DNA of 64,000 nucleotides from Rhodanobacter sp. 7MK24 (GTDB taxonomy: Bacteria > Pseudomonadota > Gammaproteobacteria > Xanthomonadales > Rhodanobacteraceae): the NCBI RefSeq assembly GCF_014842995.1, contig NZ_JACYXL010000003.1:372001-436000 (forward strand). Reading direction: 5' to 3'. Made by a program: the position numbers and the translations under genes. The notes beneath the pieces were generated by a model, which ran no database searches, was not told the origin of the DNA, and saw only the letters and a list, made by a program, of their open reading frames with translations. This document shows positions 19,798 through 45,257 of this stretch, in pieces (within the stretch, counting starts at the first letter, position 1; the number at the start of each line of letters is the position of its first letter).

Positions 19798-20877
19798 TCA
19801 TGCCGCAAGCCCTTTCCGTGCCGCCGCGCGGCGGTGGCGTACGGCGGCGGCCAGCTGTTCCAGCACGCGCACCGATTCGTCCCAGCCGATGCAGCCGTCG
19901 GTGATGCTCTGGCCGTAGGTCAGCGGATGGCCCTCCAGCAGGTCCTGGCGGCCGGCGACGAGATGGCTTTCCACCATCGTGCCCACGATGCGCCGTTCAC
20001 CCGCTTCGAGCTGTCCGGCGATGTCGGCGATAACCAGCGGCTGGTTCTCCGGCTTCTTGCTGCTGTTGGCATGGCTGGCGTCGATCATCACCCGCGCCGG
20101 CAGGCCAGCCTTGGCGATGGCGGCGCATGCCGCTTCCACGTTGGCCGCGTCATAGTTCGGAACCTTGCCGCCGCGCAGGATCACGTGGCAATCGCGGTTG
20201 CCGCTGGTGGCGGCGATGGCGGCCTGCCCCTGCTTGGTCACGGCGAGGAAATGGTGCGGATGCGAGGCGGCCTGCACCGCGTCCACCGCGATCTTCACGT
20301 TGCCGTCGGTGCCGTTCTTGAAGCCCACCGGGCACGACAGGCCCGAGGCCATCTCGCGGTGCACCTGGCTCTCGGTGGTGCGCGCACCGATGGCGCCCCA
20401 CGCCACCAGGTCCGCGAGATATTGCGGCGAAATGATGTCGAGGAATTCGCAAGCCGCCGGCACCCCCAACGCGTTGATGCCGCACAGCAGCTTGCGCGCA
20501 ACGCGCAGGCCCTTGTCGATGCGGAAGCTGCCGTCGAGGTCGGGGTCGTTGATGAGTCCTTTCCAGCCCACGGTGGTGCGCGGCTTCTCGAAATACACGC
20601 GCATCACGATTTCCAGCTCGTCACCGAGGCGTTCGCGCTGCGCCGCCAGCCGCTGCGCATAATCCAGCGCGGCGCGCGGATCATGGATCGAGCATGGGCC
20701 GATCACCACCGCGAGCCGATCGTCCAGGCCATCGAGGATGCGGTGCAGTGCCACGCGCGCATTGCCCACGGTGTCCAGCATCGCGTTGGTGGCGGGACAC
20801 TCGTCCATCACCTCGAGAGGCGTGGCGAGCGGATGGATACTGCGGATGCGCAGATCATCGGTGGAAACGTGGGACAT
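19798..20877 (-). CDS. aroG: 3-deoxy-7-phosphoheptulonate (DAHP) synthase, type I
   Basis: Catalyses PEP + erythrose-4-phosphate to DAHP, the first committed step of the shikimate pathway to Phe, Tyr, Trp. 359 aa, the usual AroG/F/H length. Family motifs: VVIGPCSIHD, RVYFEKPRTTVGWKGLINDP, GARTTESQVHREMASGLS, GFKNGTDG, and ASHANSSKKPENQ. A GAGGAG ribosome-binding site precedes the ATG. The gene is preceded by a transcription attenuator with an aromatic-rich leader peptide (see separate entries), so expression is predicted to fall when charged aromatic tRNAs are plentiful. Which amino acid inhibits the enzyme cannot be read reliably from the sequence. Confidence 0.96.
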   Translation of the reverse strand: MSHVSTDDLRIRSIHPLATPLEVMDECPATNAMLDTVGNARVALHRILDGLDDRLAVVIGPCSIHDPRAALDYAQRLAAQRERLGDELEIVMRVYFEKPRTTVGWKGLINDPDLDGSFRIDKGLRVARKLLCGINALGVPAACEFLDIISPQYLADLVAWGAIGARTTESQVHREMASGLSCPVGFKNGTDGNVKIAVDAVQAASHPHHFLAVTKQGQAAIAATSGNRDCHVILRGGKVPNYDAANVEAACAAIAKAGLPARVMIDASHANSSKKPENQPLVIADIAGQLEAGERRIVGTMVESHLVAGRQDLLEGHPLTYGQSITDGCIGWDESVRVLEQLAAAVRHRRAAARKGLAA

Positions 20878-20911: not shown

Positions 20912-20945
20912 GAAAAAAGCCGCCTCGGTATTGCTGGCGGCTTTC
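20912..20945 (-). terminator. Attenuator terminator upstream of aroG
   Basis: Minus-strand AAAGCCGCC (20944-20936), an 11-nt loop, GGCGGCTTT (20924-20916) and a run of six T (20918-20913) form an intrinsic terminator 35 nt before the aroG start. Its 5' arm overlaps a segment (CCGCCAGC, 20940-20933) that is perfectly complementary to leader-peptide sequence. Confidence 0.88.
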
Positions 20946-20967
20946 GGGATGGGGTTTCAGTGTTTCG

Positions 20968-21048
20968 TCAGGACGATCGCACCCATGCCTCCGCCAGCGG
21001 CTTCGGATAGCCATAAAACCAAAAATACTGGCGGGCGGTGGGATTCAT
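20968..21048 (-). CDS. aroG leader peptide (aromatic-rich, attenuation)
   Basis: A 26-codon frame from ATG 21048 (or 29 codons from ATG 21057), beginning MNPTARQ, followed by YFWFYGY, then PKPLAEAWVRSS and a stop. Six of seven consecutive codons specify Tyr, Phe or Trp (Y, F, W, F, Y, Y), with a further Trp later. It lies between the diguanylate cyclase gene and the aroG terminator and has the segment arrangement of amino-acid operon attenuators. The mix of all three aromatic residues fits control of the first common enzyme rather than one branch. The peptide itself probably has no function beyond sensing charged tRNA. Confidence 0.85.
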   Translation of the reverse strand: MNPTARQYFWFYGYPKPLAEAWVRSS

Positions 21049-21056
21049 GACGTCCA

Positions 21057-21085
21057 TCAATAGCACCACGCCCGGCGCACTGCAA
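21057..21085 (-). promoter_or_regulatory. Possible aroG leader promoter
   Basis: TTGCAG (21085-21080), 17 nt, TATTGA (21062-21057) on the minus strand, just after the diguanylate cyclase stop. The start would fall near the leader ATG at 21048. The -10 is only a fair match. Confidence 0.35.
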
Positions 21086-44940: not shown

Positions 44941-45257
44941 AGTGGGAACCCAGATGGCGGCGTCCTTGTGCCGATCAAGCCGGCATCGCAGGCAACTTGC
45001 CGCCGCGCCGGCGTACCGGCTACAATCTCACAGTTTTGCAGACCGTCATCGAGGCTTTCGACCGGTGCGCACTGCAAGGCGAAACGGGATTGTAACCGCG
45101 CCGCGGCAGCATCCCAAACCCAACGCCACACACGCATCGGCACCGTTCTTCGGGGTGCCGCGCGCAGCATTCGCTGCCGCGGTCGAAGCCGGGGATGCGT
45201 GGAGGTCCCAACCCCCGGGCCGCCTACACAAGGCCCAATGCTTTAAGGAGTTACACC
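44941..45257 (+). promoter_or_regulatory. map-rpsB intergenic region with rpsB promoter and long leader
   Basis: 317 nt without a gene. The promoter is at 44997-45026. The transcribed leader of about 220 nt contains GGCACC/GGGTGCC (around 45138-45159) and GCGGCAGC/GCTGCCGC pairs, so it can fold. Autoregulatory S2-binding leaders are known upstream of rpsB in gammaproteobacteria, which makes one likely here, but I cannot confirm the structure. Confidence 0.5.
44997..45026 (+). promoter_or_regulatory. rpsB promoter
   Basis: TTGCCG (44997-45002), 18-nt spacer, TACAAT (45021-45026). A good sigma-70 match in the expected place. Confidence 0.6.

Follow-up and report, generated by a model that had tools for sequence, protein, structure and literature searches.

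A putative ribosome-mediated attenuator with Tyr, Phe and Trp codons before the type I DAHP synthase gene aroG in Rhodanobacter and other proteobacteria

The window, a stretch of 64,000 nucleotides from Rhodanobacter sp. 7MK24, carries a type I DAHP synthase gene (aroG) which is very probably controlled by a ribosome-mediated transcription attenuator, with read-through predicted during a shortage of charged Tyr-, Phe- or Trp-tRNA. DAHP synthase governs how much material enters the pathway to all aromatic amino acids. The anatomy of the element, its conservation, the support for its pairings and its constant link to type I DAHP synthase were observed directly, and the weight of evidence for reading it as an attenuator is comparative.

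The attenuator locus was located on the minus strand at 21048-20913, and contained a leader ORF, four pairing segments and a U6 terminator, followed by aroG. A GGDEF gene (22286-21099, minus strand) was the upstream neighbour in the same direction as aroG, with the attenuator between both. The leader ORF (21048-20968, minus strand) consisted of 26 codons (MNPTARQYFWFYGYPKPLAEAWVRSS) and ended at stop codon TGA (20970-20968). Its control codons TAT TTT TGG TTT TAT GGC TAT (21027-21007, minus strand) encode the peptide YFWFYGY, which the sequence-only reading of this DNA had reported and which was found again at the same place. Ten ORFs of 8-60 codons with at least four aromatics in seven consecutive residues existed on both strands of the 64 kb window, and the leader ORF was the sole one with six of seven. 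The small reading frame and its series of control codons for products of the pathway, as belong to an attenuator, were thereby identified, and translation of the frame is predicted. The T6 tract (20918-20913) that the same reading had noted ahead of the DAHP synthase gene was also in place, with the gene start at 20877 and a Shine-Dalgarno sequence GAGGAG (by reading) at 20891-20886 of the minus strand.

Segment 1 (CCGCCCGCCAG, 21038-21028, minus strand) was situated immediately 5' of the first Tyr codon, and segment 2 (GCTGGCGG, 20998-20991, minus strand) within the leader ORF. They were paired in the fold, and by reading CCGCCAG and CTGGCGG gave seven perfect pairs, which makes 1:2 the putative protector with segment 1 beside the control codons. 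Segment 3 (GCCGCCAGC, 20941-20933, minus strand) could pair with segment 2 through eight perfect pairs (GCTGGCGG with CCGCCAGC, by reading), and as this pairing overlaps 3:4, the predicted antiterminator 2:3 is exclusive with 3:4. Segment 4 (GGCGGC, 20924-20919, plus T6, 20918-20913, minus strand) provided the right arm and the U tract of a predicted intrinsic terminator between leader and gene, with a loop of 11 nt. The lengths of seven and eight pairs given earlier for 1:2 and 2:3 were correct; for 3:4, given earlier as 9 bp, the fold had 10 pairs with those of the U tract counted. Inside the 2:3 loop a small stem TCGT-CCTG-ACGA (20976-20965, minus strand) was formed at the leader stop codon in the fold.

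The single-sequence fold was moderately better than those of shuffled sequences (z -2.39, 4/200 as good). A simple terminator scan detected nothing at the attenuator, because it allowed loops of at most 8 nt and the actual loop is longer.

The type I DAHP synthase protein was matched in 73 of 147 genomes of the same family, giving 72 full-length genes because one match was a fragment of 38 residues. The leader peptide was present before 71 of the 72, in 70 cases by script and in one (L016, MSFHTYRLHVWFYGYPRPPAAVWARSS) by reading. The aroG of genome G136 (L029) had other sequence in place of the leader, and represents a putative natural loss of the attenuator. By reading, the leader, promoter and terminator of this genome (L029/L169) were replaced, and a stretch like that 3' of the terminator remained. 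L016, L029 and L161 were below the threshold for the table of family rows; the 76 rows of the family and Xanthomonadaceae represented 74 distinct regions. L031, L055 and L130, whose regions repeat another, as well as L162, were left out of the alignments, and alignment A2 took 54 of 113 regions. The proposal that relatives should keep the leader frame and the aromatic codons was borne out, with the leader ATG and the frame conserved in alignment A1. The cores GGCGG of segment 2 and CCGCC of segment 3 were invariant in the 73 rows of A1. The letters conserved downstream of the aromatic run belong to segment 2, and their conservation would therefore be best read as an RNA constraint.

Among 80 named homologues, all seven from Rhodanobacteraceae and Xanthomonadaceae had the leader, and an aromatic leader with a terminator was found in 43 of the other 73, alpha- and betaproteobacteria included. 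The bearers were Bradyrhizobium (YFWYFSYDSSLAAGG), Mesorhizobium, Devosia, Leisingera and Methylosinus, as well as Burkholderia and its relatives with the leader FYFYFFW.L.PLADREG, and Massilia and its relatives with YFYFS. At the threshold of the script no such leader was found for the homologues from enterobacteria and Photobacterium among the 80. Of 48 non-xanthomonad candidates, five (L070, L073, L080, L091 and L092) were set aside by hand; L073 and L080 among these may be real leaders. With the leader before 71/72 family genes and 43/73 other homologues, the attenuator could not be a product of chance, and the predicted switch precedes type I DAHP synthase in three large proteobacterial classes.

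The pairing check that had been proposed also turned out positive, with compensatory changes in 3:4, and arm swaps in favour of 1:2 and 2:3. For the terminator 3:4 in 54 rows, 96.7% of cells were paired and 21 cells were changed on both sides, with a covariation score of 0.147 reached by 0/500 shuffles; a terminator with a T tract was present in all 119 rows given, and RNAalifold on A1 recovered mainly this terminator. Column covariation of 2:3 was not above shuffles (57/500), because its GGCGG:CCGCC core is nearly invariant. In the arm-swap test, which needs no alignment, arms were exchanged between 43 hand-picked rows, each standing for one genus or lineage. Native arms beat exchanged ones for 1:2, 2:3 and 3:4, each at 0/2000, figures to be taken as guides and not as probabilities, because the exchange breaks relatedness as well as pairing. 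For 2:3 the swap was not significant within the 20 family/Xanthomonadaceae rows alone (423/2000) and significant within the 23 alpha/beta rows (1/2000). The interval between segments 2 and 3, which carries the stop codon in its loop, gave 3/2000 in the 20 family/Xanthomonadaceae rows and no support in the 23 alpha/beta rows (633/2000); compared with shuffled letters its folds had a mean z of -0.95, and 22 of the 118 rows reached the 5% level.

A sigma-70 promoter was predicted at 21085-21057 (minus strand), composed of -35 TTGCAG (21085-21080), a 17-nt spacer and an extended -10 TG-C-TATTGA (21065-21057). The consensus promoter scan of the window detected no promoter at the attenuator. By reading, the upstream regions of the family had TTTGCAT, about 16-17 nt and TGTGYTATCAC in common, and the mean -10 motif score was 6.58 versus 4.87 for shuffled upstreams. 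The distance from the -10 end to the leader ATG was 7 or 8 nt in 70 of 76 rows. From this fixed distance the transcription start is predicted at 21051-21049 (minus strand), 0-2 nt ahead of the leader ATG, and the leader mRNA is therefore probably leaderless in the family. A start near 21050 would be upstream of 20968, where the leader ORF ends. Many alpha rows had a -10 spacing similar to that of the family, and many beta rows had TATAAA or TATAGT about 25-40 nt ahead of the ATG (by reading), so that beta leaders would have a 5' UTR, which appears to be roughly 20-40 nt long. An extended -10 of the form TGnTA has been reported for leaderless mRNAs of Bradyrhizobium (PMC4842269).

The place of the hairpin between two genes of the same direction would also suit a simple terminator for the GGDEF gene, or early termination that is constitutive, with the small ORF being no sensor. 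This is highly improbable, since leader peptide and terminator were kept together before aroG in three classes, the element goes with aroG, and the promoter-like stretch holds a constant distance to the leader ATG.

For the attenuator, the following order of events is proposed. The transcript would begin at the leader ATG or beside it, and a ribosome would start on the leaderless ORF. Under a shortage of charged Tyr-, Phe- or Trp-tRNA, the ribosome would stall in YFWFYGY and cover segment 1, leaving segment 2 free; 2:3 could then form and block 3:4, and the polymerase would continue into aroG. When all three tRNAs are charged, the ribosome would translate past segment 2 and reach the stop codon, 1:2 could form behind it, and segment 3 would pair with segment 4, with termination after U6 near 20913. 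In this way the aromatic run would combine three end products by OR logic, and would act on one of the two DAHP synthases of the cell. The start site, the stalling, the response to tRNA charging and the OR logic are what we infer from the arrangement and its conservation.

Folding of partial transcripts from 41 hand-picked rows, each for a different genus or lineage, was consistent with this order. For a ribosome placed on the first aromatic codon the mean probability of 2:3 was 0.84; for one placed on the stop codon it was 0.36, with 1:2 at 0.33; 2:3 was higher at the first aromatic codon than at the stop in 30 of the 41 rows, and lower in none. Many beta rows had no 1:2 pairing in these folds. 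The partial transcript of the window preferred 2:3 throughout (1.00 at the first codon, 0.98 at the stop, 0.85 without ribosome), and in the equilibrium fold of its complete leader the terminator was favoured at all ribosome positions tried, with the smallest margin at the fourth codon (terminator 0.48 vs 2:3 0.40). These folds barely separate the ribosome states in the window, and the model therefore needs co-transcriptional kinetics. In classical trp attenuation the switch is decided during transcription.

All three residues Tyr, Phe and Trp were present in 76 of 76 family/Xanthomonadaceae leaders. The integration of three end products suggested by the sequence-only reading thus fits these leaders, but a Trp codon was found in only 27 of 43 alpha/beta leaders and was missing in 16, and the three-way mix is therefore not universal. 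The missing Trp codons would suit an attenuator to which one or two amino acids matter, for example Phe, with the other aromatic codons as passengers or as a means to keep the loop unstructured, and the FYF leader of Corynebacterium glutamicum is described as responding to Phe limitation and not to Tyr (PMC11802643, PMC4046766). The uniform mix in the family speaks against such a restriction, and by geometry a ribosome at any of the seven positions of the run would leave the GGCGG core of segment 2 free with the footprint used; a narrower sensor is a serious possibility even so, though the less probable one. Codon choice in the leaders differed from that in aroG, with TTT and TAT preferred over TTC and TAC. 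In 35 family/Xanthomonadaceae loci with both parts, Phe was encoded by 66 TTT and 10 TTC in the leader and by 14 and 167 in aroG, and Tyr by 63 TAT and 46 TAC in the leader and by 39 and 142 in aroG; in 43 alpha/beta loci Phe was encoded by 109 TTT and 30 TTC in the leader and by 35 and 228 in aroG. Slow decoding or an unstructured AU-rich loop could be behind this codon preference.

A further segment 5 (GGCCGCC, 20909-20903, minus strand) was recognised 3' of the U tract, complementary to segment 4, and most family rows had GGCCGCC or a variant at this place. For the 4:5 duplex in the 76 family/Xanthomonadaceae rows, the native energy was -14.48 kcal/mol, compared with -13.45 after swapping (0/500 as low) and -8.50 after shuffling of letters, and 64 of the 76 rows were within the best 10% of their own shuffles. 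In a hand-made choice of 45 rows, with a single row for each genus or lineage, swaps gave 121/5000 for family/Xanthomonadaceae (20 rows), 11/5000 for alpha (8 rows) and no signal for beta (1907/5000, 17 rows), and conserved 4:5 complementarity is therefore absent from beta. At equilibrium the window RNA folded without the 4:5 pairing; as a guess, segment 5 might capture segment 4 after read-through. A role of segment 5, or of CCGCC at the aroG start, in governing translation was considered and was unsupported by the window fold.

The 4:5 complementarity conserved in family and alpha rows could point to control which is mainly translational, with stalling altering access to the aroG ribosome-binding site via segments 4 and 5 and termination being secondary. 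We regard this as improbable, because the T-tract terminator was found in each of those 119 rows, CCGCC stood beside the aroG start in only 24 of 72 rows, and the Shine-Dalgarno region was unpaired with segments 2 or 4 in the window fold.

A covariance model, R1, was built from 54 aligned regions. In the genome of the window it gave one strong full-length match (E 3.5e-28), one other full-length match at E 0.59 and otherwise partial ones. R1 could find the element in genomes: in 299 genomes of the phylum, searched with strict filters, the best 30 matches (E <1e-7) were all directly before type I DAHP synthase, and so were the three ranked next, by coordinates. Among the matches listed, the element was present in 25 of 25 genomes whose AroG was at least 66% identical to the query, and of 170 genomes with an AroG match at E up to 1e-100, at least 35 had a full-length R1 match beside the gene. 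Weaker full-length matches were mixed, with one in G311, one in G240 and others without a recognised attenuator. The match in G311 was weak, had a peptide of 14 residues and stood before a pheS-like gene. The stretch in G240, a genome from another family of the same order, was attenuator-like (L207, G240:C136:88462-88584, minus strand), having by reading a Leu/Val/Ile-rich frame SILVLVLITQ and a terminator before an ilvC-like gene.

When the label leader or none was mapped on an AroG tree with 77 rows, it needed 13 changes, or 11 with L073 and L080 as leaders; with L016 labelled as none it needed 14, versus a shuffled mean of 21.9. Alpha and xanthomonad aroG were united in a supported group of 33 rows which excluded enterobacterial AroG. 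The tree is compatible with gene and leader having spread together, and also with an old element that was later lost in some lineages.

The aroG product (20877-19798, minus strand, 359 aa) was assigned to type I DAHP synthase by TIGR00034 aroFGH (529.5 bits vs cut-off 173.2), with the AroG equivalog NF006723 just under its cut-off (552.1 against 568). Its best match among solved structures was Phe-sensitive DAHP synthase (E ~1e-147), the matched structures being those from E. coli. A class II DAHP synthase (PF01474) was present in all 147 sampled family genomes, so AroG is a second isozyme in about half of the sampled family. In the genome of the window the class II gene was located at G000:C31:575370-576671 (minus strand). 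In six genomes examined, no aromatic leader of the aroG kind was found at the class II gene, and the gene ahead of it was dsbB-like. With this second synthase lacking such a leader, the switch would control only part of the pathway flux. The genome of the window also encoded a TrpR-like protein, with a TyrR-type HTH match only below threshold, and the surroundings of its trpE and prephenate dehydratase genes had no aromatic-rich small ORF at the threshold of the script.

In E. coli the homologous type I enzymes AroF, AroG and AroH are controlled by TyrR/TrpR, a difference from the present locus which the sequence-only reading had pointed out. The E. coli pheA and pheST attenuators, the latter being pheM-pheS, are similar in being ribosome-mediated, with alternative pairing and a Phe-rich leader; however, the aroG leader was not a member of the Rfam family Phe_leader (RF01859; 15.3 bits vs gathering 55). 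With a relaxed threshold, only matches below gathering, Phe_leader included, were obtained at the attenuator, and no family of Rfam 15 was above gathering there. To our knowledge, the surveys of proteobacterial attenuators of Panina 2001 and Vitreschak 2004 contain no DAHP synthase attenuator of xanthomonads. In open-licence literature neither a proteobacterial DAHP synthase attenuator nor a paper printing the leader peptide strings searched was found.

The closest likeness was to the aroR-aroF attenuator of C. glutamicum (Neshat et al. 2014, as described in PMC11802643 and PMC4046766), where an aromatic leader peptide (FYF) precedes DAHP synthase and Phe limitation raises transcription. Compared by description, the likeness is one of function only: the host is an actinobacterium, its leader has Phe-Tyr-Phe with no Trp named in these descriptions, and Tyr availability is described there as having no effect. 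The uORFC-13-1 motif before Acholeplasma aroF, again compared by description, is a candidate with a uORF containing Phe codon(s) and a terminator, but belongs to another phylum with 24 representatives (PMC8632094), and the same source mentions that attenuation was once hypothesised for E. coli aroF. The trpL/rnTrpL of Sinorhizobium meliloti shares attenuation in an aromatic pathway and has a leaderless mRNA starting from AUG, as is predicted for the aroG leader, but it has Trp codons, is situated before trpE, and its terminated RNA and peptide are described as acting in trans (PMC7298713, PMC10117765). Since DAHP synthase attenuation is known in C. glutamicum, the kind is not new in itself; we class the aroG attenuator as a new family of a known kind, ribosome-mediated attenuation being classical.

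More tentatively, and on balance we would not expect every part to hold, the elements may be one homologous attenuator family, undescribed in proteobacteria, which spread across alpha-, beta- and gammaproteobacteria together with type I DAHP synthase, the two forming a regulated cassette. In this reading it would be leaderless and respond as an OR gate to three aminoacyl-tRNAs; of the two DAHP synthases it would govern the inducible one, with the class II enzyme lacking it, and in alphaproteobacteria and xanthomonads segment 5 would capture segment 4 after read-through. If the attenuator reading of aroG is right, the TyrR/TrpR picture of E. coli would fail for a good part of the phylum, and xanthomonads, Rhodanobacteraceae, Burkholderiales, bradyrhizobia and mesorhizobia would attenuate DAHP synthase by sensing two to three aromatics together. 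The natural OR gate would be open to dissection codon by codon, with natural variants without a Trp codon and the one natural loss in G136 at hand, and the probably leaderless leader ORF would make stalling studiable without a Shine-Dalgarno sequence. It would also be relevant to strain engineers raising aromatic output in such hosts.

Elsewhere in the window, the t44 RNA family (RF00127) gave the sole Rfam match above gathering, at 45109-45212 of the plus strand (58.1 bits vs gathering 44).
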